In this document: piece by piece, positions 8,574-44,693 of the stretch
Position numbering within the stretch: the stretch's first letter is position 1
How the letters are laid out: the number at the start of each line of letters is the position of its first letter
Assembly (NCBI GenBank): GCA_018287875.1
Contig: JAGVVL010000013.1
Location: 868,001 to 932,000, forward strand
Source of the DNA: Nigrospora sphaerica
Taxonomy: Eukaryota; Ascomycota; Sordariomycetes; Amphisphaeriales; Apiosporaceae
DNA: 64,000 nt
Reading direction: 5' to 3'
Notes under the pieces: generated by a model
The model's input: only the letters and a program-made list of their open reading frames with translations
What the model was told of the DNA's origin: nothing
Database searches by the model: none
Made by a program: the position numbers and the translations under genes

Positions 8574-8796
8574 CGTGCTTTCCCCATGGGAACATGACGA
8601 GATGCTGTTTCATCCACCGGGGTCATGATGCCCTTCCCTGAGCACAAGACGGCTCTCTTATCTCCCATGCGTTGTGTCTCTTCGGCGCTGTGTATGCGTG
8701 CTTTCCATATCCTGGTCCTGGTGGTGGTCGTGGTGAGCGGCGAGATGTCGTTTCACCCACTGTGGCCACGGTGTCCTCTCCCGAGCATAAGACGGA
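8574..8796 (+). repeat. Degenerate direct repeat
   Basis: Two diverged copies follow each other: about 8574-8650 and about 8697-8796. Both contain GTGCTTTCC, a GACGAGATG/GGCGAGATG-TGTTTCA block and CCCTGAGCACAAGACGG/CCCGAGCATAAGACGG. No coding function is seen. It may be an old tandem duplication or remnants of terminal repeats. Confidence 0.35.
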
Positions 8797-9610
8797 TGTA
8801 TGAGCGTTTGTTCTATTACCTTGCCTTGGAGGCGGTGGGCGAAGAGTAGACGGTACATTGCCATCGACATCTATTTGCTTTCGAGAGCTTCCGCCTAATC
8901 TTTTCGGCAAGGGGCTCGCCTTTAAGTATGGGCGCCCCCGCCCGGGACGTCGGCGTTGTCGTCAATCGTTGGGTGATGGAATAGGCCCGTGGTCGCTGAG
9001 GAACTGTCTCTTCTGGTGAGGCTAGTGACACGTGGCACCACCATCGTAAGCGGGGCGTCGAAACCCTGGTATTGGCCAACCGGCGTGTCCTCGACGTCCA
9101 CGACCTGGCGCTCGTCTTTCATGGGGCACGGAAACTCGCTGCAGGAGACGGCGGTGGACCCGTTGTCAACTTGCGTGATCCAAATTCTTAGCCATAGCCT
9201 TCGACTCCTCGTGCTGCTGATGACGGTTCAGGTAGTATTTCCTGAAGTGGGCCTGTTCAGCAGAAGGATTTGGCATGGACCAAGGATGTCTGGTGGACAA
9301 TATCGCTGCCGCGACTCAATCATTATAGGCCGCTGACGGAGCCGCCGGGGTAGCCCTAGTCGTAGGTTGGCTTTTTATCTTTTGCTATGAGACTTTCACC
9401 GGAAAAAGAAGGCCCAACCTCCTCACTTGCGCGAACACGACATACCGGTAAAAGATGGCGCCAGTAGAGGACGAAGCCGGTAGGGCCTGTCTGACAGGGC
9501 CGCCAGCGGAGTAGTGAACGGTGTGCACCGAAGAGGCGCGTCCTGTAACAGCGGTGGAAGGGGCGAGATACATGCGAGGGAACGAATGTGCCCGAGTTCC
9601 GGGTGTATAG

Positions 9611-25348: not shown

Positions 25349-25561
25349 TGTAAGGGAGGAGGCGTTGGAGAGGTGCATCTGCAGGCTGGTCACCTGACCT
25401 GCGGCACAGACCCACCGGCAGCCTACTAGCGAGGAGCGGGCGCACTGCTGGCGCCCGACCTGAACTTGGATTCTGCAAGAATCAGTCTTGCAGTGGAATT
25501 GAGCCTGCCCTTCGCTACCCTATACCTGACGGTGCCATTGTGATTCCTTCGGATCCTTACA
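25349..25561 (+). repeat. Gypsy 5' LTR
   Basis: The 213-bp repeat runs from TGTAAGGGAGGAGG to CGGATCCTTACA. It contains a perfect 8-bp hairpin, CTGCAAGA-ATCAG-TCTTGCAG, around 25474-25494. A further related solo copy, inverted, lies at 33179-33391. Confidence 0.95.
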
Positions 25562-25576
25562 ATTCTGATTCTTCTC
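25562..25576 (+). other. Candidate self-priming site downstream of 5' LTR
   Basis: No tRNA 3'-end complement (TGG...) follows the LTR. Instead CTGATTCTT (25565-25573) is the exact reverse complement of AAGAATCAG (25477-25485) inside the LTR. This is the arrangement used by Tf1/sushi-type chromoviruses, where the 5' end of the transcript folds back as primer. The nine-base match is seen directly; the mechanism is inferred. Confidence 0.45.
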
Positions 25577-25608
25577 TTAACGTCACCTATACGGTAGCGA
25601 GCGGCAAG

Positions 25609-26634
25609 ATGGTAAGGGGAAACAGAACTACCCCGGCGACCGCCGCCCCAAGCGAAACACCCGAAAGCATCGCGGCCATTCAGCCTACCGCCGACCTCTC
25701 GATAGAGGAACGACAGCTCGAAGATATCAATGCGCGTATCCGCCTCTTAGAACAGCTCCAGCAGCAAAAGGAAAAGGAGCGAGAACTCCGCCTCGCCCTT
25801 GGGCTCGACACCAACAGCATGTCGACACCGGCGCGACCGCGACGCGACTCCTCCTCTTCTTCCGACCAAGGCCGCGACCTCCGCACGCGCAACATCGATA
25901 CTTTTAAATGTTCGTGGGGGTTCCGACAACGCGAGGAATGGCTAGGCGACCTCGAGCTAGCCTTCATGCGCGCCACGAAACGCTTCAAGAAACATAGAAA
26001 GCGCATCCTATTTGCACTCGACTATATGGAACAGGAGGCACGCACGCTATGGAAACGACGGCTAAGCGACTACGAGTCACCAGAGGAACGAGATGCTGTT
26101 TACAACGACTACCCAGCCTTTGAGGAGTGGACACTCTCCTTATTACGCAATGCGGAGAACCAAGAGTACATCATCGCGAACCAACTTAACAACGCCGCCC
26201 AAGGGCCTACGCAGAGCCCTCGAGACTTCGATATCTACCTCGCCGGCCTCGAGAAACAGCTACAGCGAACGAGTGAAGAGGAGCGTATGCGCTGCTTCTT
26301 CGCCAAGCTTGAACCCCAGTTCCAGTCGTACCTTAACATATACGGTGGTGCAAAGCCAACGAGTCGGGCCCAAATGGTCATCTGGGCTCAGAGCCGATGG
26401 GATGAATGGGCTAGGTCAGACAGCCGGAATAAACGAAGAGCGGACACGCACTTTGAGCGACCATCGAAACGCTATCAAGGAGGCAGAGAATTCCCGCAGA
26501 ACCGCCCACGCACGGACCACTTTGAGAGCAGAAACTCGATTACGCCCGACCCGCGCCGACCTTACGAGCCCCGCCGACCGCAAGCCCCGAGAGCTGGAGG
26601 AGGAACCCTATCGGACGGAACGGACGAGTCCTAA
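25609..26634 (+). CDS. Gypsy Gag
   Basis: The frame is open from inside the LTR, but the first ATG beyond LTR and primer site, at 25609, is the likely start, giving about 341 codons to TAA 26632-26634. A coiled-coil-like acidic/basic stretch (ERQLEDINARIRLLEQLQQQ) precedes the retrotransposon gag domain (RQREEWLGDLELAF..., TLWKRRL...EEWTLSLLRNAENQ). The tail is rich in Arg and Pro and suits nucleic acid binding. Gag assembles the virus-like particle in the cytoplasm. The CCHC zinc knuckle [14 protein letters not shown] follows directly but in another frame (from 26637), so either frameshifting or an indel joins the two. Confidence 0.85.
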   Translation: MVRGNRTTPATAAPSETPESIAAIQPTADLSIEERQLEDINARIRLLEQLQQQKEKERELRLALGLDTNSMSTPARPRRDSSSSSDQGRDLRTRNIDTFKCSWGFRQREEWLGDLELAFMRATKRFKKHRKRILFALDYMEQEARTLWKRRLSDYESPEERDAVYNDYPAFEEWTLSLLRNAENQEYIIANQLNNAAQGPTQSPRDFDIYLAGLEKQLQRTSEEERMRCFFAKLEPQFQSYLNIYGGAKPTSRAQMVIWAQSRWDEWARSDSRNKRRADTHFERPSKRYQGGREFPQNRPRTDHFESRNSITPDPRRPYEPRRPQAPRAGGGTLSDGTDES

Positions 26635-26636
26635 CA

Positions 26637-29600
26637 TGCTATACCTGTGGGAGCGAGGAGCACCTGTCCCCTAACTGCCCAAGAGCCAGCGCACAGGAGG
26701 CGCATCACCGCCGAGGCGGCCGCGAACACCAGGCAAACCAGGGAAAGCCCGGGCCCTGTAGAGGCACCCTACTCTACAGAGCCTCCGCTGTTAAGGGTTA
26801 CGACCCGCCTACACACTCGTGTCACGATAGAGAATGGAACGAATCTCCAAACTCATGCCGACTTAGACACTTGTGCCGAGGTGGACTGCGTAAGCTTCGC
26901 TTTTGCTCAGACCGCAAACCTCCAGCGAAGCAGTGTCGAACCACCGACTATCCACGCCGTTGGGCAGCTACGTTGCCCTACTTACGGTGTTTACGAGGTC
27001 CCCTTTCGTATCACGGATGACCGGGGCACCACGCGGACTTGTCGACGCCTCTGCGTCGCCATTGATCGAGACCCTCGCACTGAAGGGAGCCCTATCCTGT
27101 TATCCCGCACATTCCTGAACGAGCACCGTGTGATCCTCGAACCTGCTAGCGATAGGTGGCTCTTCGGCTTAGAGATAGCGAAGAGCGAGCTCCTTACTGC
27201 GCCGCAGTTCCTGGACCAAGCGCGTGGTTCAGCGCATGTGTATGCGGTGACAATGCTACCAACCCTAGCTCTGCCAGACGAAGACGAGCCTGTGGCTAGC
27301 CAAGATCTCGACAGCATTCCGGCAGAGCTCCGCTCGTTTCTCGACGTATTCAGCGCCCAAGAGGCCAACCAGGTTCCGGACCACAAGGCCTCGGACCATG
27401 CCATCGATCTCCTGCCGGACACCTCCCCACCTTACGGCCCTATCTACCCTCTCGCTCAAGACGAATTACGAGAACTTCGCGAATACCTAGAGACAAACCT
27501 ACGAAGCGGCAGGATCCAACCGTCGAAGAGCCCAGCTGGCGCTCCCATTTTATTCGTCCCCAAGAAGGACGGTACACTCCGCCTTTGCGTTGACTACCGG
27601 GGCCTCAACCAGGTCACGGTGAAGAACCGGACGCCTACCATAGGATTCGCATCCGGCGAGGAGACGAGTGGAAGACAGCCTTTCGCACGCGTTACGGTCA
27701 CTTCGAGTATGTGGTTATGCCTTTTGGGCTCACCAACGCGCCAGCCACCTTCCAAGGGTATATCCATGAGGCGCTCCAAGGCCTACTCGACGTCGTCTGC
27801 GTCGCATACCTCGACGATATCCTTATCTTCTCTAAGGACCGCAACACCCATGCTCAGGACCTCCAAAGCGTACTACAGCGCCTCCGTGAGGCCGAGCTTT
27901 TCGCTAAGCCCTCCAAGTGTTCCTTTTTCCAGGACCATGTCGAGTTCCTAGGATTTATTATCTCGCGCGACGGCATATCGATGGAGCCTAGTCGGGTGTC
28001 CACTATCCAGGAGTGGCCGCTTCCTCAGAGCTTCCATGATATCCAGGTTTTCCTTGGGTTCTGCAACTTCTACCGACGATTCATTTACCGGTACTCCCAT
28101 ATTGCTCGCCCCTTACATAACCAGCTTAAGGGGATGGTTCGAGGCAGGAAGCCAGGCTTAGCCTCTATGGGACTTAAAGAGGTCCAGGCCTTTAAGCAAC
28201 TCCAGGATGCTTTCATTAAGGCACCGTTACTCCGTCACTTCGATAGCCAGCGGCTCACCCGAGTGGAAACTGACGCATCGGATTTTGCAATGGCAGGTGT
28301 GCTAACGCAAGCGGATGATAGTGGGCGATTCGCCCCCATTGCGTTTTGGTCTCGCAAGTTCAACGCCGCTGAACTGGCGTACTCCGTACCGGATAAGGAG
28401 ATGATGGCTATCGTGGAGTCCTTCAAGCACTGGCGGCACTACCTCCAAGGTAGCCTGCAGCCAGTGGAAGTACTTACAGACCACCAGAACCTCCAAGTGT
28501 TTATGAAGCAGAGTCGACTTAACGGGCGTCAAGCGCGGTGGTGCATGTTCTTGGCTCCTTTTGACTTCAACATCAAACATAGGCCTGGCAAGAGCAACCC
28601 CGCGGACGCGCCGTCGAGAAGACCAGACTTTAAGGGCGAAATGCCGCCGAGGACTGAACTCCTCGACACCTTACACGCTAAGGTAGTGCATATCCAAGGG
28701 GCACGGGCTAGTGCACCCCTACCTCAGTTGATCGCAACGTATGTTGGCGCCACCGGCGCGACAAAGTATCGCCAGGCGAGAGGTGCCTTACAGGGCGAGA
28801 ATATTTATTCAGACGAAGGGTCGGCTAAGTTTAAGGAACTAGTCAGACAGGGCCAGAGAACGGACCCAGAGACGCGAGCCCGTCTTGATGCCTGGGAAGC
28901 GAGCAGAGCCCCAGATGCCCGAGGAGCAAAGGTGCACTCGGATGCCCGAGGGGCTAAGGAGCCCTCGGAGGATGAGCCAGAGACGCGAACCCGTCTTGAT
29001 GCCTGGGAAGCGAGCAGAGCCCCAGATGCCCGGGGAGCAAAGGAGCACCCGGATGCCCGAGGGGCTAAGGAGCCCTCGGAGGATGAGCCAGAGACGCGAT
29101 CCCGTCTTGATGCCTGGGAAGCGAGCAGAGCCCCAGATGCCCGGGGAGCAAAGGAGCACCCGGATGCCCGAGGGGCTAAGGGGCCCTCGGAGGATGAGCC
29201 GGCTAGATCGAAGAGACTAGTTAGGCTGGGCTACAAATTAGTCCCAGGGACACAACGTCGCCTTGATGCCTGGGAAGTGAGCAGAGCCCCAGATGCCCGG
29301 GGAGCAAAGGAGCACTCGGATGCCCGAGTGGTTAAGGAGACCTCGGAGGATGAGCCGGCTAGATCGAAGAGACTAGTTAGGCTGGGCTACAAATTAGTCC
29401 CAGAGACGCAACGTCGTCTTGCTGGAGAGACGGACGCGTCCTCGCAGCGAAACGCAGGTGACTGGTCAGTGGTTGGCAGCACGCTGTTGTTTAAAGGCAA
29501 GGTGGTGATACCGGCCTCGAAGGCTCTAAAGGATACTATCCTAGAGACCTACCATGACGACCCCTTGCAGGGCACTTTGGACGAAAACGGACAGAAGAAC

Positions 29601-30866
29601 TGATCCGTAGGAAGTACTACTGGAAGCATCTCGCTATCGACGTCGCCGCGTGGGTGGATAGCTGCGAGGTATGCCAAGGAACAAAGGCGAAGAGACATCG
29701 ACCTTATGGCGAGCTACAGTCGTTACCGCTACCACAAGGACCATGGCAGGAGATCACAATGGACTTCATCACCGGCCTGCCTGAAGCGCAGTTCCAGGGG
29801 ACCCGGTGAATGCCATCCTGGTCGTGGTAGACAGGTATACGAAGATGAGTCGGTTCTTCGCTGTCAATACGTCGATGACGAGCCCGCAGCTTGCAGAGCT
29901 ATTGCATAAAGAGATCGAACTGCGATACGGAGCCCCAAGAGGGATTGTGTCAGACAGGGGCAGCCTATTCACTAGCGAGTTCTGGTCGAACCTTTGCTTC
30001 TACTCGAGGATTAAACAGAGGCTATCTACAGCCTTCCATCCCCAAACAGACGGCCAAACAGAAAGGGCTAACCAGGTACTAGAGGTATACCTACGGTGCT
30101 TCACTGGCGACGAACCAGCGGCATGGCCACGACTCCTCGGCGAAGCAGAGTTCGCAGTTAATAACGCGACGAGCGCAACAACGGGCATCTCCCCATTTTT
30201 AGCACTCTACGGATACAACCCCGAAATCCGTGAGGGGATCGTGGACGAACCCCGGGGAGGGAGGTGCCAGCCGCTAAAGAACGGATCGAACGCCTACAAG
30301 CCATTAGGGAAAAGCTACAGACTCGCTGGCAAAACGCCACAGCGGCACAGCAGAAGTGGTATAACCGGAGACACCAACCCCTACACATGAGGACAGGCGA
30401 CCTCGTAGGGCTATCGACAAGGAACCTGCGGTTAAAAGTGAACAATAAGCTAAAGCCTAAGTTCCTCGGACCGTTCAAGATCACCGAGAAGGTTGGCCGT
30501 GCCGCCTACCGCATCGCATTACCGACAAAATACCAGCGACTCCACGACGTTTTCCCGGTGTCCCTCCTTGAGCCATGGAATATCCGTCTTGGAAGCCGGG
30601 CCGAGGACTTCTTACAAGGCCCCGAGCTTGAGGACGACGAAGAAGAATGGGAAGTCGAAGACATCTTAGCGAAACGCAAGCGACACGGCGGGTACCAGTA
30701 CCTAGTGAAGTGGAAGGGCTGGCCTGCAGAATATAATCAGTGGGAGCCAGCAAGACATCTACAGCACGCACCTATATTAGTGCAACGGTTCGAACAGCAA
30801 GCAAGAAGGCAAGGGACAAGACAGGCCTATGATCCATTACAGGCCCAGAGGGCAGAGAAGAACTAA
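26637..30866 (+). pseudogene. Gypsy Pol (protease-RT-RNase H-integrase-chromodomain), frameshifted
   Basis: Order of parts: CCHC knuckle (26637), protease with [10 protein letters not shown] at the active site, reverse transcriptase start ([20 protein letters not shown]), a gap, then [14 protein letters not shown] and [13 protein letters not shown] (about 27800), RNase H (ETDASDFAMAGVL, TDHQNLQVF), a linker with tandem repeats, integrase zinc motif ending C-x2-C (near 29670), the integrase triad in MDFITGLP, SDRGSLFTS and HPQTDGQTERANQ, and a chromodomain (EVEDILAKRKRHGGYQYLVK) before TAA near 30866. At about 27640 some 30 codons including RT motif A, with its catalytic Asp, are missing and the frame changes. 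Further frameshifts lie near 29570, 29808 and 30262, several beside short G or C runs. The enzyme set would copy and integrate the element; the chromodomain targets integration to modified chromatin. Confidence 0.9.
28876..29440 (+). repeat. Tandem repeat in the RNase H-integrase linker
   Basis: Units of 111 bp (37 codons), with cores SRAPDARGAKEHPDARGAKE, repeat from about 28890, 29001 and 29112; a variant unit starts near 29268 with a spacing of 156 bp. A second motif, ARSKRLVRLGYKLVP, occurs twice (about 29208 and 29359). The repeats stay in frame with pol. Chromoviruses normally have no such array here. A role as flexible hydrophilic spacer is possible. Confidence 0.85.
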
Positions 30867-31017
30867 AGCAAAGCTGCCGAAAAACCATCATCCTAACAGC
30901 GCGTCGCCAACAACATGACAGCAAAAGGCCCAGCCAGAACGAACACGATAAACAGCCGTCGCCACGACAACGGCGCGCCTGCAACATGGTGGCGTATAAC
31001 AAACAACTAGTCGACCC

Positions 31018-32007
31018 CTACAGGGCCAGCTCGCTGAAGGAAGAAGGGAAGTGTCTTAAGACACCCACCCACTCGCTATCACGCCACTCCTCGGCCTCCT
31101 CCGAGATTTCGCCAGCAGGCAGCTCGTCCTGCGGCACCGAGTCGCTATCGATGATATGCTGGGGGCGCGTGTCCTCCCAGACGTGGTCGCACCAGACCTG
31201 CTTGCAGTCACGCATGAAAGCACGCACGGCAATGTGCCAGACATTGGCGCCTGAGTCGCCACGGCGAAGGCGGACCTCGTTCTTCTCAGCCCAGGCTTGA
31301 AGGGCATCCTCGTCCTATAGGGCAGCCGCAAGTCAGCAAACAGACAGTGTCCCGACAGCGATAAGATAAGTACTCACAGCCCCATAGCCAGGGTGTGGGA
31401 ACTGGGTGGCCAACAGCTGGGAACGGCTGGCGACGTACTGGCTGTACGCCACCGCACGGTCCTAGCATTGTCAGCGAGTCGTCACCAAGTCACTGGCCGA
31501 TATCACATACCACACCGGTAGCCTTGTCCCCAGTGATGCCAAAGGGTGAGCCATGGGCCGTGACAGCTGCCATGAAAGCAGCAACGAGACGGTGGTAGGC
31601 CTGGTTCACCTCGCGGCGGCCGGCAGCGGGCACGAGGTACTCTCCCTCCTCCTCGTCCTCCTCGGGCTCATCGCGACCGAAGAAGGTGGCCTTCAGAATG
31701 GCCATGACCCTCTGCAGGTCGGACTCGTCGCCGTTCATCCCGGCAGGCGCCTGTTACGCGTTAGCGAAGCTATGGCGACACGATGGAAAATACTCGCCAG
31801 CTTGCATGGCTTGCTGCGCTCGCAACAAAGGCGGCATCGGTCTACCGAGGCGGCGAAAAAGACGCACTCGGGCTGAACGAAGTATAGGGCGCCGGAAGGC
31901 CAATTGTCCAGCAGGTGACCCTAGCACCGCCGACAAGGCCGGATTGCACCCTCAGGCTGGTTGTAGTTGAGCTCGCCATTCGACGAGAGATGGGGAGCGC
32001 GCGGCAT
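31018..32007 (-). pseudogene. Antisense spliced cysteine-motif gene within Gypsy element
   Basis: The gene runs opposite to gag-pol. From ATG 32007, after a pyrimidine-rich leader, it encodes MPRAPHLSSNGELNYNQPEG and a six-cysteine segment C-x2-C-x19-C-x9-C-x2-C-x6-C. A TAG, probably an altered Trp codon, follows the second Cys. Two later introns are clear: 31510-31462 (GTATGT...CTAG) and 31377-31315 (GTGAGT, TGCTGAC branch, CTATAG), both joining phase 0 exons. A first intron near 31790-31751 (GCTAAC branch) is likely, but its donor is unsettled. Downstream exons contain an acidic patch (DEPEEDEEEGEYLVP), NQAYHRLVAAFMAAV, and end with ...SSFSELAL and TAG 31018-31020. The protein is hydrophilic without signal or membrane segment and may bind zinc. 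I recognise no named family; related genes lie antisense in the Copia elements here. Confidence 0.65.
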
Positions 32008-32410
32008 GGTGACAAACGGGACGGTATCGCGACGTCGAGATGATGGTGAACTGGCGCAGAGGTGACAGCGACACAATGGAGACGCGTCGGGACCGCGTTT
32101 GAAGAATGAGGACACGTCTAGAAGACGATGAGAGGATGGCGCTCAGCGGCCGAGGAACTGACGATTGAGGATGAGGATACACTCTCGACCGAGAAGAGTA
32201 GAGGGCTGGAGATGAAGAAGGTTGGCCAGGACTGGACTGGCAGCTGGGATTAATTGCTCTGATTGTTTGGCTGCCTGGTTGCCTAGCTACGGGGACCCCG
32301 CCTCCGATCTAAGCTGGAGCTCTTACTGAGGAGGGGTAGCTTCCCCTCTTAATGGGTATGGCACCAGTGAGGTTGGCGATGCCGCCTGAGGCACCGGGAC
32401 GGCTGCCTCA

Positions 32411-32420
32411 TGAGGGGGGG
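32411..32420 (+). other. Gypsy polypurine tract
   Basis: TGAGGGGGGG lies six bases before the 3' LTR and is the expected plus-strand primer. Confidence 0.7.
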
Positions 32421-32426
32421 CATAAT

Positions 32427-32639
32427 TGTAAGGGAGGAGGCGTTGGAGAGGTGCATCTGCAGGCTGGTCACCTGACCTGCGGCACAGACCCACCGGCAGC
32501 CTACTAGCGAGGAGCGGGCGCACTGCTGGCGCCCGACCTGAACTTGGATTCTGCAAGAATCAGTCTTGCAGTGGAATTGAGCCTGCCCTTCGCTACCCTA
32601 TACCTGACGGTGCCATTGTGATTCCTTCGGATCCTTACA
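32427..32639 (+). repeat. Gypsy 3' LTR
   Basis: 213 bp, read as identical to 25349-25561, and followed by the duplication CTTGT. Confidence 0.95.
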
Positions 32640-33178
32640 CTTGTACCTATGTACCCATGTCGTAACACGGCGGTTTTCTACTTATTTCGGATATTCTGAC
32701 TAGTAAGCCCAGCTAAACAAGCCTTTTAATAGCAGGTAAGGAAATTCCGCTTATTAACTATTATTAAGTCCGTTAATTAAGTTAAAAACCTAAGCTTTTT
32801 CTGGTACGCCAATTCTAAAGCGCTAAAAACGGCTAAATCGAGAGGTTAAAGGATATAAGAGGTATAAGGGGGTAGAAAAAGAAGGTAAATATAATAAGAG
32901 AAGCACTGATATATAAAATCAGTTATTATATAGCTACTATAACCGTCTATAATAAGTAGGCGGTACTCGAAAGGGTCTTTAAAGGCAGTATTCAGGATAA
33001 AGACTTTCTTTAGCCACTCGAGCGCTGTTTAGTCTGTAATCTATCCGTTTTCGGTTACAGTAAACTGCTAGCCTTTAAATTGGCTTAAATCAACCGGGAA
33101 CCATTACTGTTAAACCGTCTTACTCTTAAAAATAACCAATGGGGGCAGGGCACGGCTTTAAGCGGAGATATATTTAAT

Positions 33179-33391
33179 TGTAAGGATCCAAAGGAACCAC
33201 AATGGCACCGTCAGGTATAGGGTAGCGAAGGGCAGGCTCAATTCCACTGCAAGACTGATTCTTGCAGAATCCAAGTTCAGGTCGGGCGCCAGCAGTGCGC
33301 CCGCTCCTCGCTAGTAGGCTGCCGGTGGGTCTGTACTGCAGGTCAGGTGACCAGCCTGCGGATGCACCTCTCCAGCGCCTCCTCCCTTACA
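33179..33391 (-). repeat. Solo LTR of the Gypsy family, inverted
   Basis: The 213-bp segment is the reverse complement of the Gypsy LTR with several differences, so it is older than the neighbouring full element. Flanks TTAAT (33174-33178) and TTAAC (33392-33396) form a 5-bp duplication with one C/T difference. It splits the pogo transposase relic. Confidence 0.88.
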
Positions 33392-34139
33392 TTAACGAAG
33401 GACGCCTAAGCACGAGAACTAGGCTGTTTCTTTCGTACGGAGCGTTTTTTTAAACCTCCAAGTACTAGACCGTTCGATCTAGCACCTTCTAAGAGTCCTG
33501 CTTTATCTATGTTGTGGTGGTTAGCCGGCTTTACCCTTTAGATCTCCGGTAGTTGAAGATATTGGAACTATAAGCTAATTACCTCGACTGAGGCGCTATT
33601 AATACGCTGCGAGTCGATAGACCGGCTCTTCTAGACCCGTATAGCTGGGTTCCTGTATAGGAAGGCCTGCAGCCACCTCTTTCCAAGTGGCTCGCTGTCG
33701 CCCTAAGCCCGAAGGATAAATTTAGTAAACTCCTTAACTTGGGCGTGTGAAGGCGGAAGCCTCAAGGCAGCTTAGGTCATAATTTAGGTCGTAAGTAACT
33801 CTTTCTAGACTAGTCTAAGTCTCTATTGGTTTACGAAGGCTTCGGGTTTAGGTTAGTGACCTTTAATTCGGCTCTATAGTGTTAACTTCGGTATACCGTA
33901 ATCTCGAGAGGTTTGCTTAATTTTACCCCCAGCTATAATAGCAGCTAAGGCTTGTCGAAGTTCTGCTTCCGAATACTGCTTCATTTTAAGGAAAAGAATA
34001 TAGAAACTAAGTTTCGGATAGATTCAAATAAGTTTACGGAAGTATATATAAAAAGAAGTCGAGGGGCTGGAAATTCGGTGGCTGGTTTTTGGGGGGCCGA
34101 AATGTGGGGGGGCCGAAATGGGGGTCCTCTAACTTAACT

Positions 34140-34899
34140 GGAGTAAATATATTAAGTGATGTGGGTGCCATATTTGTAATACTATGGTTTGTGTGAGCTT
34201 GAGTATATTAAAGAAAGGCAAGTTGTTCATTCCTGATGTGGGAGGACACTCTTTTATACACATTTCAAAGCATGGCTAGTGGGTGAGACTGAGAACTTCT
34301 AATAGAGTAGGGAGAGTAGGGAGAGTACCATGAAATTGTGAAGTGATGGAGGAGAGCTCCGTATATATGTGGATAGCTGAATCATTCAGTGGACAGAAAA
34401 GCTCTTCCAGTATCTTGACTCTGACTTAATTCGTAAGTCCCAAGATGTGATCTGAAGGTTTAGGCATCCCCACGGAAAGATGCGAGCCTAATTCGGACCC
34501 CTAGATTGACTTGATTGCTATACAGACCTTCCATCTCTGTAAAACGTTAATGTTTAGGCAGCGTGTTAGGTTTTGTTAGCGAACATGGATCGGTAGCTAT
34601 ATGGATATCAAAGCGGCCGCCGGCACGAGGAATCTTGTCAGAAGTATGGAATTTGAGTCAACAGGCGAAGTGCCTGTCCGGGCGAATATAGGACATCGTT
34701 TCAGGATCGGCACGTAAAAAATATCTAACTTGCAAGGCAGCAGAGCACACCGGAATGCTGGGTCAAGAGATGATTTCTTGATAATCCTACCAGGTATATC
34801 TCCACGGCTCGACAGTACATGTTACCGCAGAGGGTTGGCCTACAGCAGGTTTATATGTTCGAGGGGACGACGTAGCTGGGTGGCTGCCGCGTAAAGCTG
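34140..34899. other. No recognisable gene
   Basis: The AT-rich spacer between two pogo elements has no supported feature. Confidence 0.4.
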
Positions 34900-34901
34900 T
34901 A

Positions 34902-36828
34902 AGTTGGACCACCACTGCTCGGGCCACCCCCTTAATGGGCCACCTAAAAAGTATCACCAACCTCAACAACCCCAACACAGTCACTAATAAATAGCACGGT
35001 AACCAGCGCTCGTAAAAATGAATAGAATATACCATTCTACTCCTCTTTCAATTGCGCATCTTATAACATGTTGTCCGACCACGAAAAGAACCTGCGTGCA
35101 GCCGCTAGAGCCCACCGAAATGGCTTATCTGTGCAAGCCGCGGCCATCAGACATGAAGTATCCAGAACCACCCTACAGCGCCATATAGACGGCGGTGTTT
35201 CGCGCCGTGAGGCCTCTCAGAAGCGTCAGAACCTATCCCCAACCACTGAGCGCTTTTTAATGCGCTGGGTTAAGTTACAGACTAAGCTAGGCTATGCTCC
35301 TCCACACTCAAGGTTCCGTCTGTTCGCTATAAGGCAATCCCAAGCTTCAGGGGGCCCTCAGACCCTCGGAATATACTGGGTCCGGAGATTCCTGCGGAGA
35401 CATCCAGAGTTGAAGACTTTGCGAAGCGTACGGTATAACTGGAAACGTGCTAACGCTGCATGTTCCGTCAATATCGTTGAGTTCTTCGACCGGCTGGATG
35501 ACCCCCTTATGTCGGCTATCCCTCCTGCTCACACTTATAATGCCGACGAGATAGGGACGATGGTCGGTATCGGAGACGCTCCTTTAGTTATTGGACCTTT
35601 TGAGCTTAAGGAGGTCCTTATTAACGACCCCCTTAACAGAGATTGGGTGACTATTGTGGAGTGTGTGTCTGGCGATAGCCGAGCCCTCTTCCCCTTAGTT
35701 ATCTTTGGTGGCAAAAACGTTTAACAGCAGTAGTTTAACGACGAGATGTTTAACGACGACGACCTTAAGCAGTGGAAGTTCGGCTTTAACGGCTCCGGCT
35801 GGTCAAGCAACGAGATAGCGCTACGTTGGCTACGTGAGGTGTTTCTTCTGTAGACGAAGCCCTAGGATTCTCGACAGTGGCGCTATCTGATTATCGACGG
35901 CCACAACAGCTATATTAACGAGCCTTTCCTTTTAGAGTGCCTCCAATCGAAGGTCTGGTTGAATTTCCTTCCGGCACACTGCTCACAAATTCTCTAACCA
36001 CTTAACGTCGGCCCTTTCTCAGTGTTAAAGCGGCGGTTCCGGTCTATCCTACGTGCCACTTGCTATTCTATAATGGCCACAGTTGCCGGCAAACCAGAGT
36101 TCGTGGCAGCCTGGAAACGGGCTCGGAGTGAAGCCCTCACGAAGGAGAAAATCCTTCGGGGCTGGGAATCAACTAGCATCTATCTAAGAGACCGATCTAA
36201 GGCGCTTAACAGCAGGTTAGCTATACAGGCTGATACCATAACCGCAAACGCACCAGACCGGCCGAAAACACCAGACAAATCCCTCCAGGCTTCAGAAAAC
36301 TATCTCCAGACTCCCAAGAACAGCAAGGACCTAAGGGAATTGGAGACATCTATGTTGGCAGAGGATGGTCTACCGTAGACTGCCGGGGTCCGCCGCATGA
36401 GCCGTCAGGTCTAGAAGGCTCTTGACACTCTTAACGCCACTATCGTGGGACTGCAGTATAGCCAGGAGCAATTGAAGGCTGCATTAGAGAGACAGAGACC
36501 TCGAAAACAGCGCAGAGTTCTCCCTAGGGCCCAGCAAGCCTTCGTTGACATAGCAGACATCCAACAAGCTAAGGATCAGCTGCAGGACGAGGCTGAGTCT
36601 CAGCGCCCGCGGCGCTCTATGCGCCGCCAGCCAAATAGACGGTCGGAATTGCCCCAAATTGAACCAAACCAAGACGAGGAGATAGAGCATGTCGAGGAAG
36701 AGATACGCGTTCAGTTTTAGCTATAGAGGCCTCATGGTGGCTGCAAAACACCATAGTGAATAGAGTGGTGTTGATATTCTAGTGACGTGGCCCATACAGG
36801 GGGTGGCCCGTTCAGTGGGGTGCTAACT
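34902..36828 (+). mobile_element. pogo/Fot1-type transposon
   Basis: The 1927-bp element is flanked by TA (34900-34901 and 36829-36830). Imperfect inverted repeats of about 45 bp share GTAAGTT, CACTG, CGGGCCACCCCCT and ATGGGCCAC. It belongs to a different subfamily from the other copies, judged by repeat sequence. Confidence 0.88.
35068..36720 (+). pseudogene. pogo-type transposase pseudogene
   Basis: From ATG 35068 the frame encodes a helix-turn-helix (LSVQAAAIRHEVSRTTLQRH), a CENP-B-type DNA-binding domain (RFLMRWVKLQTKLGYAPPHS, YWVRRFLRRHPELKTLR), and the DDE catalytic domain with YNADEIGTMVGIG, LIIDGHNSYINE and PAHCSQIL-PLNVGPFSVLK. The third acidic residue is Asn, as in the 17774 copy. 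A basic and Gln-rich C-terminus follows, ending at 36720. The N-terminal 218 codons are open. Then come stops after GGKNV (35722 onward), in the LREVFLL region, at QILQ (TAA/TAG for Gln) and twice near 36376-36413. Most fit CAG/CAA to TAG/TAA. Dead copy with moderate RIP. Confidence 0.85.
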
Positions 36829-36834
36829 TACTAT

Positions 36835-37207
36835 AGCGGGATTGCGGCGTAATTCGAGCCTCGGGATACATGTCTCGAGAGTGGTGCAAGTGCAGGAGAA
36901 ACTCTTTTATTACACACCGCTGTCAATTATCCAATCTTTCGCATCCAATACCACCTGTTAAATAATTCCGCACATTTACCTTATAATGCCGGCAAAATCA
37001 GCTAATTCTCTTCCAATATATTTAGTAGCACAGCATGTCCACGGATTCAGTGCTTCGTCATACTATGCGAGCCACTTAAGATCAGAATACAAGCCGTCTG
37101 TTAGAGACTGATCAAATCATTTGATGTCCAATCTCCCCCTAGTTACGGGATAGCGAATATGCAATGTCTGGCTAGGGATATGTACCCGTGTTCCCGTGAC
37201 GTGTTAA
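36835..37207. other. No recognisable gene
   Basis: Short spacer between a pogo element and a Copia element; nothing seen. Confidence 0.4.
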
Positions 37208-37212
37208 CAATG

Positions 37213-37402
37213 TGTCGCACTTCAGGGGACGTGAGGAACGAGGTTCTGATTGTTCTATTAGGAAAAACAAAGGAAAACTATCTGAGGATCCAGACGTAGA
37301 TATAGTAGTTCCGTAGCCTGCCTGACAGGCTAGGCTCTTGAGCTTACATAAAGTCACGTGACCTGGTAGGCTTGTTAGTGACAATAGGCTCGTCTCGCGA
37401 CA
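37213..37402 (-). repeat. Copia 3' LTR (minus strand)
   Basis: 190 bp; on the minus strand it begins TGTCGCGAGACGAGCC and ends CCTGAAGTGCGACA. It pairs with 44499-44688 and with the solo copy at 12256-12445. Confidence 0.95.
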
Positions 37403-37851
37403 CACCCCCTCAGCCGAACCGATCCGCTCGGTGTGGCTGAAAATCGCTTAGTAAGGGTCCTGTGAAGCGATCCTTTTAAGTTTTCGCTTGCGGGCTGCGA
37501 TCATCCTTAAGATCGGACGATGAGTTGTTGTAAGTAACAGCCGCGTATTGAGATCAGACGATGAGTTGTTCTGATCAATAGCACGTCAGAACTCCTCGCA
37601 GCCGTAACTTATGCGAAATCACAACTCCTCTCTTTAAATGCAGCACGTCCGCATCTTGACTCCTTTCGTCGGTGAGAGCCGCTATGCTGCTTCACTGCAC
37701 GCGTTGCTTAGCGATATCTTAGTCGTCTAAACTCTCGCGCTGCTTCTAAGTGAGTCAGTGTCCCGTCACTCGCTGCCTAGGTGGATTCATCGCGAGTCTG
37801 GCAGCTTCGGTGAGCAACTTCGAATAGGGCGTGTCCTTAGAGGCTTAAGGG

Positions 37852-37857
37852 TATAAA
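37852..37857 (+). promoter_or_regulatory. TATA box of the antisense gene in the Copia element
   Basis: TATAAA lies 130 bp before the ATG at 37988. A long CT-rich stretch (CTTCTTCTTCCCC..., about 37875-37980), typical of fungal leaders, separates them. It faces opposite to Copia transcription, so the accessory gene seems to have its own promoter. Confidence 0.5.
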
Positions 37858-37987
37858 GGAAGCCCTCCCCCGGCTTCTTCTTCCCCTTATTATCATCATT
37901 GCGCTTCCCACTGTCTTCTGCACTTCTTCTCTCGCCTTTCAGGCCATCCATCTAGCTTCTTCTCGCTATTTTCCAGTATCATCAGCA

Positions 37988-38885
37988 ATGTCTGCTGGTT
38001 TGTTCGCACCTTGCCTGTTCTCTGGTGCTTATTTTGCTAACTTTTCGCTTCATAACGGTTGGCCAGGGCAGTGGCGGGCGTGCGCCTTTCTAGGGCAGCG
38101 GCAAGCCTAGCCGCGATCACAAGGATAGCGAGTCCGATATAGACCCCAAGGAGCTCAAGCGTGCCAGAGAGCTCATTAAGCACGCCAGGGCCAAGGATAA
38201 GGCTCGCAAGGCCGCCAGCTTGTCTCGCGTTAAGATGGCTATTCTGCGGCGCCAGAAAGGTGACTTGCGCTTCGCACCCTGTCTCCCCTGTTTGCGTGGT
38301 GCCGAGCGTCATTCTCGTGGCCATTGCCACGATACTCGCTTGCCAGGTGCCTTAAAGTGTTACGAGTGCACTTTAAATAACCATCAGTGCGAGGAGGTGC
38401 CCGAGTAGCTTACCCTAGCTGCTCGTTCCCTATTACGTGAGCTGAACCGCCTAGTCCAGAACGTTGTGAGTATCTTTTTGCTGCTGATTCTCCTACTGGC
38501 TGTTCTAATAGGCTTGAAGCCTCAGATTCGTCGCATAAGAGCAACCGTGAAGGGCTTGCGCGACCTGCATGGCCTTCCCGATGACCACACGCTTCTTGGA
38601 GGCAACGTGGGCTCTCTTAAGCCTTGCAGCGCTCCTGCGTCCGACAGCTCTTCGCCGCTCTCTTCCCCTCCGCCTTCTGAGTCTTCTCTAGTGCCCGAGA
38701 CGCCTACGCCTGGCCTTAGTGCGTATACCAAGCTGCCTAAGAGGCGTGGCGAGCGGAGAAAGTAGGACTTAAGCTCGAGCTCCAGTTCCTCCAGTGTTTC
38801 CGGCGACAATCCTGCAGAGCTTGGCCCTATTATGGAGCTAAGGGAGCGCGCTCCTCGCGTGCAGTACCACATAAAGGAGGCTTAG
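37988..38885 (+). pseudogene. Antisense spliced cysteine-motif gene within Copia element
   Basis: The gene lies between pol and the 3' LTR, on the strand opposite to Copia. After ATG 37988 an intron with the perfect branch site TGCTAAC is likely (about 38025-38064), though its exact join is unresolved. The next exon carries a basic, charged region (PKELKRARELIKHARAKDKA) and a six-cysteine segment, C-x2-C-x11-C-x10-C-x2-C-x6-C (38270-38397), followed by EEVPE-stop-LTLAARSLLREL. A second intron fits 38466-38525 (GTGAGT, CTAAT branch, CTCAG acceptor, phase 0). The last exon reads RIRATVKGLRDLHGLPDD, then a long Ser/Pro-rich region and KLPKRRGERRK, and ends with TAG near 38885. In-frame TAGs stand where Trp is plausible (38406-38408, 38763-38765), as RIP would give. 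No known family is recognised; possible zinc-binding, nucleic-acid-associated protein (inference). Confidence 0.65.
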
Positions 38886-38984
38886 AGGAAGGGAAAGTAG
38901 GGTCGGTGTGTTTATAGATATTAAAGCCCTGCTCTTAATAGCAGGTAGTATCTTATCTACGATGCTTTAAGATTCTTCAATCTA

Positions 38985-41900
38985 TATACATTGTTTTCCA
39001 TTCTCTACTTCCTTAATCGCTTGTCGGATGTCCTGAAGGTTGAGAGTCGCTCTAAATTGCTTAAATTTCGCCCGTGGTAGATTCTTTATTAGTCCGTTAG
39101 CTGGCATGTCCTTTATAGCGAGATAGATCAATTGAAATGAGCCCCTGGAGTATTCTTAGCGGAGCCAGAGGTTGTGTATATCAACATGCCTTAGCTTTGT
39201 AGATACCCTCTCTTAATTGCCGATAACAAGGCGTAGCGTTTGCTGGTTATCGCAGGAGATACTAAAAGGCGCGTCTAAGACGAGTTGGATGTCTCTAAAT
39301 AGCCTCTAAAGTGCTATAGTCTCCTTAGCTGTCTCGCTGAGCGCTAAAAGCTCTGCCTCCATAGTGGAAGTGGTAACTGTCGCTTATCGGCTGGCCTTCT
39401 AAGCTACTGGTCCTCCGAATAGCTGGATAAGGTATCCTTGGGAAGAACGACGCGTCTCCGGATTGTCTGCAAATAAAGCATCCGTTAAGATAACTAGCGC
39501 CTATGGGATAGACTGCACTGGTTTCTTCATTCCGTAGCGTATCGACACGTATCGAGTGCTAAACGCGTACTGTATACACCAGTCAGCTGCCTCGAGATAC
39601 TGTTAACTTGGATTCGTGAGGAAGCGAGATAGCTGTGAGCAGGCGAAGGAAAGGTCCGGCCTGATTATAATAGCGCTATAGAGGATACTCCCAACGCGTT
39701 CCTAGTAAGCTTTAACTCGGTGAGCTGGAGCAGTGTCTTAATAAACTTCTAAGGCTGTGGATAGGAGTGGCGTTGCTGGTGACTTGTCGTCCTGGAGGTT
39801 AAAACGTCTCGCTATCTTCTTAAGATAGCTATCATACGAGAGCCAAAGTAATCCCTCGTTTCTCTTATAAGTGACCCTGACCCCCAAGTAGTAGCCCATA
39901 GATCCTTGGTCTTTTAGCTTATAAATCCCCTTGAGGGCTTCGATTAAGGCGAGTGCCTCCTCTTTAGCTTATGGGCTATAACAGACTAGGAAATCGTCTA
40001 TATAGAACATAACGAAGATCGTGCGTTTCTCGTTATAGAACAGGCAGGGTTCCTTAGGTGTGCTGACAAGCCTAAGTCTTCGAAGTGAGCTCGAGAAGTC
40101 TCGGAACTATAGTTGAGGTGATTCCTTAAGTCTATAGAGTGCTCTGTTCAGCTTAAGACAGTATCCTGGCCTTTTATAGCCTGGTGGATATTCCATAAAG
40201 ATTAGTTCGGAGTTTTCTGCGAAAAGTGCGTTCAAGAATGCGTTAATAACGTCGAACTGTCTGACTTCCTAGTCGAAGTAGGCTGCTAAGGCTATGATAA
40301 TCCTAAAGGACTTCGAGGCTAACGTAGTAACGTACGTGCTAGCTAATAAAGTGACAATCTGCTTATCTCCTCGCACGCAGATCCTTGCTTTATAGCGAAG
40401 GTGCTTATTATTCTTATCGAATTTATCGGTGAAAACCTATTTTAAGGGCAGCTTGAAGAGTGAGGGAGCGTCTAAAACCTCCTCCCAGGCTTTCATAGCC
40501 ACTGCTTTATCGATCTCGAGCTTAGTAGCTTATCTGAACTGCTCTCCTTTAGGGTGAGTAGCTAATTCACGCTAAGACTTAGGTGGAGGTGCGAAGCCCT
40601 GCGGTCCGTTTGGTTCGTCTAGCTCCTTAAGTGCTCTTTAAGACTGTGTTAACGCGAATATTCACGTATGAATGGTTCTTAGGAGGTCCTCATCTTGGTT
40701 TATGGCCTCCTTAGTAAGACAGGTGCTTAAGAGAGCATCGAGATGATCAGTCTCTTGTTGGGTTATCTCCTTGAGCCCGAATAGCAGCGAAAGGAACGAC
40801 TGCTGATCCGTTTCCTGTTCTCTCTAGAGTCTCGAGCTCCTTCTCGCCAGTTGCGTCGGCTGTGAGGCTCGGGATCTCCTACCCTTAGTTGCTCTGCGGC
40901 TCTTAGGCGGTCTCTGGTCTGTCTCTTTGTTAAGAGGCCGAACAATAATTTCGTCATGGATCTCTTCTTGTAGATCCGTCTTTAAAGTCTGACCTTGCAG
41001 TCTCTGAGGAGTTATCCTCTGGTCTGGAGACTGACTATGCAGTCTCTAAGGAGCTATGCTCCGGTCTGGTGTCCCAATTAAGCTTGTCGGCCTGCGCGCC
41101 GAGATGCCTGCTGGTTCTGACACTTCGGGTGAGCCTAAGAGTGGCCGCTCTACTGCTCGTCCCGCGTTTTCTAACCCTGACTCTCTAGCAGTTGCAACTG
41201 GCTGGTGATCACTGGATCTATACCGTGGTTCGCTTGTGAGGTGTTCCGTAGGGTAAAGTATGCTGTTTTCGCCCTCTGGCTCACTTAACTAGCGACTAGG
41301 TGTAAGAAGTCCTATCTGTACATCCGATATCCTAGGCTTATGAATTCCTTAGATGTTTTCAGGTGCGTATCTCACCCCCGAGTTCTTATCGACTGGTCCC
41401 TTAGGTGTGTCCGGCACCCCCGAGTCCACGAGATGAGCCTCTCGAGTGGAGTCGGGATGTGTTTCAGGACTTATAGCGTCGTCTAGCTCCTTAAGAGCTT
41501 CCTAGAGCGGCATCGACTCGTTTGTAAAGCCTGCTTCGCTCAATGGGATCTCTAAGGGCTGAACTTCCAGATATTCTATCGCCTCTGGCTTAAGACGTTA
41601 CGAGTCTCAGCTAGAATAGAACTGCGTCTCGTTAAAGGTAACGTCTCGCGTTGGAATAACTCTGCTATACTTAGGCAACCAGATCCTGTAGATATTCCTA
41701 GCGGCGTAACTTACTAGATAACCGATCTAAACCCTTGGTTAAACTTTGAACGCTCGTCGGTCCAGCCTAGCCGCTCGTCTCTAGTGTAACGTATACGCTT
41801 TACAGCCGAACACGTATATCCCAGACTAGTCTGGCCGCAGGTTTATATGGATGTCACGCACTTAAGCTGGGCTATACTGCTCCTTATTCTGTAAAAACCA

Positions 41901-44349
41901 GGAGTCTAGCACCTTATCTAGGCTTCGGAAGCGTTGCGCCTATAATAAGTATATATTGATAAGCTTGGTTACCGCTCTCGTTGCTTCCAGCTAGAGCGCC
42001 TCGGGTAGCTTAGCGTGCTCCCTTAACTTCAGTGCCCTATTGATAACCTCTTGACCTGCTTTTTTTAAGCCCCCATTCGGCTTATAGGTGTTCGGAGGGG
42101 ATATCTCTAGTTCGATTCCTTCCTCCTCTGCCTAATGCTTATATTCGGTTATGCCCTAAATTGCTATCACCCCTTTCTCCTCGTTGTGCTTAAGGATTGC
42201 GATGTAAAGGTTGTAGCGCTTAAGGACATGCCTTTCGAAGCTTCGTAGTATTCGAAATAGCTACGTATGTGACTTAGTAGGCGAAGTGAACGACTAAAGC
42301 TTTCCGCTATAATCATCCTTCAGGACTATTAACTAGCGAGACCTATTATACCTATATGGATAGTTAAATAGGTCCTAGAGCACCTTAAAGAATAGTCTTA
42401 GGGCTCTTTCTGCTAGAATTCGACTGATAAGTCGTCTGGTGTCTGTAAGTTTATAAGTCTCACACTTTATAAGCGTCTCGCCTTTAAAAGCGACATTCTA
42501 TCCTCTCTTAGCGAGTTTTCTAAGCGTATCTCGGCTTAGGTGTCCAGCCCTAGCATACTAGAGTGCCTTAGAATCCATCTGTATCCTTAGTCTTGTTTAT
42601 TGAGCTTCACCTGTAGGTGCTTTTCGTATAGCGGGAAACGCTCTCACTGTCCTAGCCAGTGCGGAGATGACTTAAGAGGCGAAAGAGAAATAGGAGTAAA
42701 GAGGCTTGTATTCGAAAAACATAAGGTTGCCTACTCTTTCCAACTTTCGCACTAGGACGCCTTCTCCGTGCTCACTATAGTATAGAGAGCACTCTCTACT
42801 ATAGTACTAGATCCCTACTTTCAGGAGTTTCGCTTTTAAGATAATGTTAGTGTGGAATCCTTCGACTAGTTGCACGTTATATAGCACCAGGTCTACCTTG
42901 CCACCCTTAGGACTGTTCAGTAAGCCCCTTAGGACCCTTATACCTGATCCTTTAATGGAAAAAGCCAACGACCCTGCCTCCACAACTGATCCAGGACGCG
43001 CAGGAGTGAAGCTTCCCTCCTTAAGTAGCTCTATGGAGTTGATAATATGCGAGGAACCGCAACTGTCAACGACAGTCGACTATGAGAGGTTATGCGGGCC
43101 GATTTGAGCAGTAACAGCCAGGTTAATGTTGGCAGGTATAGGAAAGGTCTTAGGGACGATAGTAACCGCGACAAACGGTTCAGCGGTGGTCTGTCCTGCT
43201 CCCTTACCTGGCTTCTTCTCCTCGATGAGCTTGCGGAGTGTGCCCCAGTGATTGGACATGGCTCTTTCTCGTATTTCCTTTGCCTTAGCGTTGGTGAGGC
43301 CTCGGAACTTGACTCCGTTAGGTAGGAGGTCCGCAAAGCCATTCAGGGCAAACTGGAGACGTCTGCACACCCTGGGTTCCTATTGGTGCTTCTCTCTGCG
43401 AGGCAGGCAGGGACAGGCGTGTAGAGTGCCATTCTTCCGCTTTCTCGCCTGTGAGGTGGTCTAATAGGCTTCTCCTTAATCTCCTAACATGGCGAATGAC
43501 TTGTGACGTCTATTTAGCGTGCTAGAAGAAGTCACCTGCTTAAGAAAGATGGAGCTCAGCTGAGTTAGTATAAGTAGTTCCTTTCCTATTACTTCAGCTT
43601 TAAGGATATCGTTTAATTAAACCTAAGCCCATTGTGGAGCTATACGCTCACGAACTGCCTTTAGAAACGCCTTTATTGTAAGTGCGCCTTGCACTTTAGG
43701 GATCCTATAGGTATTGGCGAGAGCGTGAATAGCAGTAAACTCGGCGTGCTAGGCTTTTGGAGAGATTCCCCCTTTTGACGCGCTTATCAGGACTCGCTGG
43801 TAGCGTTCTTGTATTGCGGAGAGGATAGAGGAGTCCGCCGGCTGATACTGCTTCCTTAGTTCCTTAAGAAGCTTCTGGAGCGTGTTAGTCTTACTTCGCT
43901 CGACAGTCGTGGTCGTTCCGCTCTTAATAGCAGCGGTGGCATCGGTAGCTATTCTGATAAGCTCGAGTTTCTTCTCCTGGGCTTCGATATATCCGTAAGC
44001 TGCTGTGAGATACTCCTTTTTGACCGTCTGCTTAACTTATTCGGTCAGAAACAGATAATGGTTGTTAAGAGTGTTCCAAGTGCTTATATCGGCAGCAAAG
44101 GTTCGCAGTTCTTATTAAAAGCGCCTCTCTGCTGCGTCCAGTGCAGTCGGAGAGTCTGAATTCGCTCCTTAAGGCTCCTAGTAGGCTGGCCTTTCTAAAG
44201 GATTGTTAATATAGCTGTTAAGCTCCGCGTTTAGGTTGATGTAGTCCCAGATACGTCGATCTTCAGCTCCTCTCCGAAGCGAGTTGTACTAATCAGGCCA
44301 GTCGTACTTGCTGACGAGCAGGACCTTCGTGAGCGTTTAGTCGGACATG
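38985..44349 (-). pseudogene. Copia Gag-Pol pseudogene
   Basis: On the minus strand from ATG 44349, the sequence collinear with the Copia at 60940-64000 encodes gag (KYDWPD-YN-LRRGAEDRRIWDYI), protease (VVDSCGSSHII near 43070, at the position of the usual D-[ST]-G), integrase (about 42700-41500), reverse transcriptase with FYIDDFLVCY near 39970-40020, and RNase H with EAELLALSETAKETIAL and RHVDIHNLWLR (39370-39090). It ends near 38985 with NLQDIRQA. It would encode the particle protein and all enzymes for copying. Scores of TAG/TAA codons at Gln and Trp sites make it non-functional. RNase H is close to that at 1-400, so both belong to one family. Confidence 0.9.
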
Positions 44350-44483
44350 TTAAACAGGGTTCGCAGTGAGGCTAGTCTTAGCTGCGAGTAAATAGATAGA
44401 TAGATAGAAATGGGGTTTAAAGAGAGTCCTCACGATCCTGAGACTTATACAGCGTTTTAAGTGCGTTGAGAGACGCAAGTAAA

Positions 44484-44498
44484 GGCCGGGCTCATAAC
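44484..44498 (-). other. Primer binding site, half-tRNA initiator Met type
   Basis: On the minus strand GTTATGAGCCCGGCC directly follows the 5' LTR; it complements the anticodon stem-loop of initiator tRNA-Met. Confidence 0.8.
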
Positions 44499-44688
44499 TG
44501 TCGCACTTCAGGGGACGTGAGGAACAAGGTTCTAGTTGTTCTATTAGGAAAAACAAAGGAAAACTATCTGAGGATCCAGACGTAGATATAGTAGTTCCGT
44601 AGCCTGCCTGACAGGCTAGGCTCTTGAGCTTACATAAAGTCACGTGACCTGGTAGGCTTGTTAGTGACAATAGGCTCGTCTCGCGACA
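44499..44688 (-). repeat. Copia 5' LTR (minus strand)
   Basis: 190 bp, the partner of 37213-37402 with only a few differences seen, followed on the plus strand by the duplication CAATG. Confidence 0.95.
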
Positions 44689-44693
44689 CAATG

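Follow-up and report, generated by a model that had tools for sequence, protein, structure and literature searches.

Two long terminal repeat (LTR) retrotransposons, one belonging to the Ty3/Gypsy and the other to the Ty1/Copia superfamily, are located in a stretch of 64,000 nucleotides (nt) of the Nigrospora sphaerica genome (contig JAGVVL010000013.1, positions 868,001-932,000; hereafter, the window). As a preliminary description of this DNA had claimed, each of them harbors a multi-exon gene placed between pol and the 3' LTR and antisense to gag-pol (31018-32007 on the minus strand in the Gypsy element, 37988-38765 on the plus strand in the Copia element). Splice signals and codon-wise selection mark both antisense accessory open reading frames (aORFs) as predicted protein genes. 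The six-cysteine spacings that the same description reported are also correct, i.e., C-x2-C-x19-C-x9-C-x2-C-x6-C for the Gypsy motif and C-x2-C-x11-C-x10-C-x2-C-x6-C for the Copia one. The genome is 51.6 Mb long, in 33 contigs, and all the copy counts reported below come from genome-wide searches; the gene-based ones used the antisense gene as query, and elements without the gene are invisible to them. Splicing was called from sequence signals and from the comparison between copies. The Gypsy element and its antisense gene comprise the following features:

25349..32642, plus strand (gag-pol on the plus strand): Ty3/Gypsy chromodomain LTR retrotransposon, with 217-nt LTRs 100% identical
31018..32007, minus strand: antisense accessory gene of 4 exons; an internal UAG is among the 276 codons that precede the end stop
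31798..32007, minus strand: exon 1, with the six-cysteine motif
31921..31923, minus strand: conserved in-frame UAG inside the cysteine motif, right after C-x2-C
31905..31935, minus strand: predicted RNA hairpin core, with the A of the UAG in the loop
31751..31797, minus strand: intron 1, 47 nt, GC-AG (GCGAGT..GCTAAC..CAG)
31511..31750, minus strand: exon 2
31462..31510, minus strand: intron 2, GT-AG, CTGAC branch site
31378..31461, minus strand: exon 3
31315..31377, minus strand: intron 3, GT-AG, CTGAC branch site
31018..31314, minus strand: exon 4, including the end stop

The Gypsy element, flanked by the repeat CTTGT (identified by eye), encodes reverse transcriptase (RT), RNase H, integrase core, SH3, and chromo domains. 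The reading frame of its antisense gene is maintained across intron 1 only if this is spliced as GC-AG, the alternative 43-nt GT-AG intron leading to a broken frame; L059, a relative in which the same two exons are joined in phase 0 (donor GTATGT, then GCTGAC..CAG), lends support to this phase. Four near-identical copies of the gene (L001-L004, that of the window included) were found, L004 carrying a 1-nt deletion in exon 2, together with four diverged ones (L005-L008), whose divergence is mostly of the C>T/G>A type where counted (107 to 29 to 13 in L005, and 271 to 33 to 20 in L006). A distinct subfamily is represented by L056, which is 81% alike over the 42-residue motif and 54-69% over the later parts; between L052 and L056, the ratio of nonsynonymous to synonymous substitution rates (dN/dS) is 0.25 over 275 codons (dN 0.27, dS 1.09), with values of 0.16-0.35 in single segments. 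At 8 of the 13 Gypsy-type loci gag-pol is found on the opposite strand, the other five having no Gypsy match within the stretch examined.

Some further observations concern this element and its relatives. L059 (L066:2387-2600, G000:C12:5123886) consists of a Gypsy-type cysteine exon, 58% alike, where ATT replaces the conserved stop; no flanking LTR element was recognised around it, an integrase-like stretch (33% alike) precedes it by 1.4 kb on the same strand, and long ORFs adjoin. Within the Gypsy pol, between RNase H and integrase, 111/156-nt tandem repeats (28866-29399) encode units of about 37 amino acids (DARGAKEPSEDEPE...), and repeat-like matches are also present in L060. Lastly, 33176-33391 holds an LTR, solo or inverted, that resembles the Gypsy LTR at 97% and is separated by 533 nt from the 3' LTR of the Gypsy element.

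The codon following the first C-x2-C of the Gypsy motif is a stop in 12/13 loci, i.e., TAG in eight of them and TAA in L060, L061, L062, and L063, the remaining locus being L059 with its ATT. Since L051-L054 are near-identical, the independent evidence for the conservation of the stop amounts to two subfamilies. In the comparison with L056, dN/dS is 0.24 over the 28 codons before the UAG and 0.16 over the 41 codons after it, and this purifying selection on both sides, at a dS of about 1, indicates that the stop-bearing frame has not been abandoned. These values also bear on the idea that the exon-1 stop is the sign of a dead or two-part gene, translated from the exon 2 ATG with exon 1 as its leader. 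An ATG near the start of exon 2 is indeed conserved in L051 and L056, and GT-AG splicing of intron 1 loses the frame; however, besides the selection flanking the TAG, in L059 the frame passes from CRRC to GHLLENWP with no stop in between, and its junction with exon 2 is in phase; we regard such a gene as decidedly unlikely. An intron removing the TAG was rejected, because codon-wise selection acts on both sides of it and L059 aligns through it.

In both subfamilies, a 45-nt stretch around the UAG is predicted to fold into a hairpin whose 17 pairs enclose a loop containing the A (-20.0 and -19.4 kcal/mol). The 31-nt cores of the two hairpins differ at five positions (CGG/CGA twice, GGT/GGG, CAC/CAT, and CTG/CTC), all of which are third-position synonymous, with pairing kept or added, one change replacing G-C by A-U on both sides. 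Of 2000 synonymous randomisations of L056, 0.3-0.8%, depending on the stretch length, folded at least as well while keeping the A in the loop, and dinucleotide shuffles gave z values of -3.4 (31 nt) and -2.3 (50 nt). Among the 1977 TAGs present on both strands of the window, three place the A in a loop closed by at least 17 pairs, and just one of these three also folds at -19 kcal/mol or below; the window's own Gypsy UAG, where the sequence is the same as in L051, exhibits both properties.

It is known that adenosine-to-inosine (A-to-I) mRNA editing in Fusarium and Neurospora takes place in sexual tissue and prefers U at -1 and hairpin loops, as well as, in Fusarium, purines at +1 and +3, and that about 70 Fusarium genes need UAG-to-UGG editing for the full protein, including FgRID, a gene of repeat-induced point mutation (RIP) (PMC11156358). 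The Gypsy site reads CUAGGG in both subfamilies and fits these preferences, its A being preceded by U, followed by G at +1 and again at +3, and placed in the loop of the predicted hairpin. In this analysis, A-to-I editing appears to be the best-supported mechanism by which the UAG could be recoded. The same conservation data would be accounted for by ribosomal readthrough, which is often used by retroelements and would yield a short peptide plus a minority of full-length protein at all stages. However, the stop lies within the hairpin loop, instead of having the hairpin downstream of it, and is not embedded in a context of the CAR-YYA type; in our opinion, readthrough is unlikely here.

The second element is a damaged copy, and the exons of its antisense gene were derived by comparison with undamaged copies:

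37213..44690, minus strand (pol on the minus strand): Ty1/Copia LTR retrotransposon, RIP-damaged copy, with 192-nt LTRs 98% identical
37988..38765, plus strand: antisense accessory gene, damaged copy; exons 37988-37997, 38056-38465, and 38526-38765
37998..38055, plus strand: intron 1, acceptor lost (CATAA)
38280..38390, plus strand: six-cysteine motif
38466..38525, plus strand: last intron, 60 nt, at a place equivalent in subfamilies B and C

The Copia element is flanked by CAATG (by eye), and its RVT_2 and Pol_BBD matches fall below their cut-offs, the relative L064 being above that of RVT_2. In the window copy of the gene, two in-frame stops end at 38093 and 38408, and the intron-1 acceptor reads CATAA, the sequence being CATAG in 11/12 aligned copies; all these lesions are C>T or G>A, as RIP would produce. 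The comparison with L011 bears the mark of RIP, with 52 C>T/G>A, 3 T>C/A>G, and 1 transversion, the corresponding figures being 29, 36, and 3 with respect to L020, which is itself RIP-like. Seven of the 12 aligned copies are open up to the end stop, three are frame-shifted, and two (the window copy and L020) carry stops. The open copies start with MSAAVGQ..., and contain an intron 1 of the form GTTTGT..GCTAAC..CATAG and a 60-nt last intron (GTGAGT..CTGAC..CAG). The DNA search with this gene returned 17 rows, corresponding to 14 places near the full query (92-100% alike, the window copy included), one place 85% alike, and two rows that are pieces of one further place. A transmembrane segment initially considered in the Copia frame (VSTFLLLILLLAVLTGL) turned out to be non-coding, since it corresponds to the 60-nt last intron, whose place is common to subfamilies B and C.

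The protein search of the genome with the Copia motif yielded 39 rows with E values of 10 or less, a part of which are overlapping pieces, and disclosed two further subfamilies besides that of the window (A): B (L037, L038, and L064) and C (L041, L042, and L044-L050). Intron 1 and the last intron occupy equivalent places in all three; B and C possess an extra second intron (GTATG..TTGAC..TAG, ATATG in L044) between cysteines 5 and 6, and cysteine 6 comes from the next exon (HNHT before the junction, C after it). The proteins share 48% identity between B and C and 38% between B and A over the aligned lengths, and the pairwise dN/dS values (A-B 0.45, A-C 0.41, and B-C 0.51, at dS 0.9-1.7) indicate that selection on the predicted Copia protein is purifying but weak. 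Frame shifts, often due to the length of homopolymers, affect several copies of B and C and could reflect either decay or assembly errors; for the same reason (a homopolymer shift), the exon 3 frame is in doubt in the subfamily C query of one genome search. In the B element L064, the antisense gene (2139-3143, plus strand) lies between LTRs that are 99% identical (1519-1712 and 8609-8802), and the gag and pol parts are long open frames on the minus strand, yet not a single uninterrupted one. A Copia RNase H/RT is present on the opposite strand at 29/30 loci (L021-L050, L035 and L039 overlapping), with the exception of L040. The latter (G000:C13:4068288-4068587) is a Copia-type relative that has lost cysteines 5 and 6 and retained the last intron, with no Copia RNase H match nearby; a fragment resembling the Gypsy exon 4 (63% alike) lies about 1 kb upstream of it.

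In partial support of the preliminary description, homologous antisense genes exist in many other copies and in divergent subfamilies, and the dN/dS check that it proposed gave purifying values for both genes (0.25 for Gypsy, 0.41-0.51 for Copia). It has been put forward for plant antisense ORFs that the transcript, and not a protein, is what matters (PMC7264820); in the present elements, a double-stranded RNA or the masking of the genomic RNA might tune silencing in this way. Codon-wise purifying selection and the conservation of in-frame introns across subfamilies argue against such a role, which we judge highly improbable.

A different outcome concerns the ancestor that the Gypsy and Copia genes were supposed to share, which was not demonstrated. 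In the six frames of the window, such a pattern is confined to these two motifs, and it is absent from 20 shuffled windows; nevertheless, this count measures rarity and not kinship, because the pattern was drawn from these very motifs. In this reading, which follows the preliminary description, one ancestral cysteine gene would have been captured once and then exchanged between the two superfamilies. The same position and orientation of the two genes, the equal spacing of their last cysteines, and an all-shuffled p of 0.02 are in favor of this possibility. However, when the cysteines are kept fixed, the similarity score is reached by 8.9% of 2000 shuffles (p 0.089), and no intron position coincides between the Gypsy and the Copia gene. 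The alignment of the two profiles with hhalign can be read in both directions: its E is 0.006 for a single pair, but its probability is 6% and just the cysteine segment (47 columns) is aligned, the Gypsy query carrying one surplus residue at the exon 1-2 join here as well as in the PDB and protein-database searches. On the whole, a common origin is rather doubtful, although the two genes may conceivably share a very old one.

As for the encoded proteins, the Copia one is built of a basic helix, the paired cysteines, and then an acidic or Ser/Pro tail. By analogy with HBZ and gene23 (see below), this build suggests a nuclear regulator. A part in helping the element or its escape from silencing, as suggested by the preliminary description, is conceivable. 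The cysteine cluster is likely to bind zinc, which we only infer, since the structure prediction of P0001 is poor. The protein database gave no match for the Gypsy protein; for Copia, one match to the protein was retrieved, and at least three to the profile, the best 7996 candidates having been scored in the profile search. The absence of a protein from this database says little, because the collection appears to be poor in fungi. The relatives P0002 and P0003 come from other sources than this genome. Both the Copia query of this search and P0001 still include the translation of the last intron. DUF3716, a candidate family, and the other curated cysteine domains gave no Pfam match above cut-off with either protein.

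Taken together, these data might be explained as follows. The antisense proteins would regulate the element as small nuclear proteins that bind nucleic acids, much like HBZ of human T-cell leukemia virus type 1 (HTLV-1) or gene23 of Grande. The full-length Gypsy protein would require the recoding of the conserved UAG, which falls in the first half of the cysteine motif and which the Tad2-Tad3-Ame1 system might convert, in sexual tissue, into UIG, read as Trp. The complete cysteine domain would then be present only at the stage when the element can reach the progeny and RIP acts. Concerning the host side of this proposal, editing is made possible by an interaction that evolved in Sordariomycetes, the replacement of KN by MV in Ame1, a DUF726 protein, being a critical change (PMC11087585). 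In the Nigrospora genome, DUF726 gave five matching rows, and three proteins were compared. An MV of L081 was aligned by eye with RN of L079 and KS of L080. The evidence that L081 is an Ame1-like protein with the Sordariomycete MV residues is graded as suggestive only, because the MV lies 30 residues before the nucleophile position, instead of 31 in the published numbering, and is absent at the published offset, where AR is found in L079 and nothing in L080 and L081. In L081 (G000:C12:3644047-3645096), GYGLG replaces GYSLG, and hence the nucleophile serine.

Besides these two mismatches of the MV residues, several other points weigh against this explanation. Having a common descent, the two hairpins are not independent. 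For L051, an equal or better fold was reached in 1.2-5.4% of the synonymous randomisations, depending on the stretch length, and the fold is not unusual among dinucleotide shuffles (z -0.6 at 31 nt and -1.2 at 50 nt). L059, with ATT, has no such loop hairpin (its fold being -8.2 kcal/mol) and is a weak control, because another in-frame TAG occurs there and the gene itself is damaged. The Gypsy pol of the window copy is split over several frames. Concerning the proteins, no Pfam family is above cut-off for either the Gypsy or the Copia protein, the PDB search with both gave nothing better than E 0.23, and the predicted structure of P0001 is poor (mean pLDDT 57.8, below 50 in the cysteine region), high confidence being limited to the basic helix preceding the motif. 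Considering all this, we give an even chance to the explanation as a whole, that is, aORFs acting as nuclear regulators, with the full-length Gypsy protein obtained through the editing of the UAG in sexual tissue. The more specific idea that sexual-stage editing gates the accessory gene, the UAG blocking the cysteine-domain protein in hyphae and UGG allowing it in fruiting bodies, so that the regulator would be switched on only in the germ line, when RIP attacks repeats, is proposed tentatively, at somewhat less than an even chance.

Further features of the window are the following. The closest PDB match of an exon for trehalose phosphate synthase is 6jbi (791 bits), followed by 5hvm (725 bits), which we take to be the Pyricularia and Aspergillus enzymes, respectively; judging from this single enzyme, the host would stand closer to the Sordariomycetes, the class in which the MV change of Ame1 is described. 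Three direct repeats of 99 nt (48554-48850), 61-74% alike to the first one, are possibly ankyrin repeats, a name that is our guess. A transposase relic with Psq and Tc5-type helix-turn-helix domains, broken by stops, is located at 35068-36720.

The aORFs of LTR retrotransposons are a known but unexplained kind of gene; here, a single fungus harbors multi-intron antisense accessory genes in two superfamilies, and the Copia form has been maintained over three subfamilies. Zhao et al. (2011) are said to have described brtn, an antisense gene of the Boty-like Gypsy elements of Botrytis cinerea. As in Nigrospora, a fungal Gypsy element carries an additional gene antisense to gag-pol; the comparison is by description alone, in which neither a cysteine motif nor an internal UAG nor Copia elements came up. 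The brtn work is cited in PMC8365987, and the ORFs of Boty likewise sit between pol and the 3' LTR according to a review (PMC7264820). Antisense noncoding RNAs of transposons are reported from barley powdery mildew (PMC10648671). Among the top literature matches, considered by titles and abstract starts and with subscription papers mostly uncovered, none dealt with a fungal Copia element carrying a spliced antisense gene, with a fungal retrotransposon having an edited stop, or with a mobile element that times its expression through the RNA editing of its host.

The plant aORFs (gene23 of Grande, RIRE2, Retand TRP28, and PvRetro13) share with the Nigrospora genes position, orientation, and the presence in many copies, and a nuclear or DNA-binding role is suspected for them (PMC7264820 and PMC11963269). 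They differ in belonging to plants and in containing TRP28 (PF04195) and SMC domains, whereas the Nigrospora proteins have no Pfam family above cut-off and their genes have a multi-intron structure. HBZ of HTLV-1 is spliced, possesses a basic region, and has a bZIP where the Nigrospora proteins have a cysteine cluster; the likeness considered here is one of arrangement. Like them, HBZ is encoded by an antisense gene, and it is a nuclear regulatory protein (PMC11963269). Finally, the stop-correcting sites of Fusarium and Neurospora (PUK1, AMD1, FgRID, and FgAMA1) share with the Gypsy gene a UAG in a conserved frame, with U at -1 and in a hairpin loop (PMC11156358); those sites belong to host genes and have RNA proof, whereas the Nigrospora case is a retrotransposon gene known from its sequence, and, if its UAG is indeed an editing switch, it would represent a mobile element exploiting the developmental RNA editing of the host to time its own expression.

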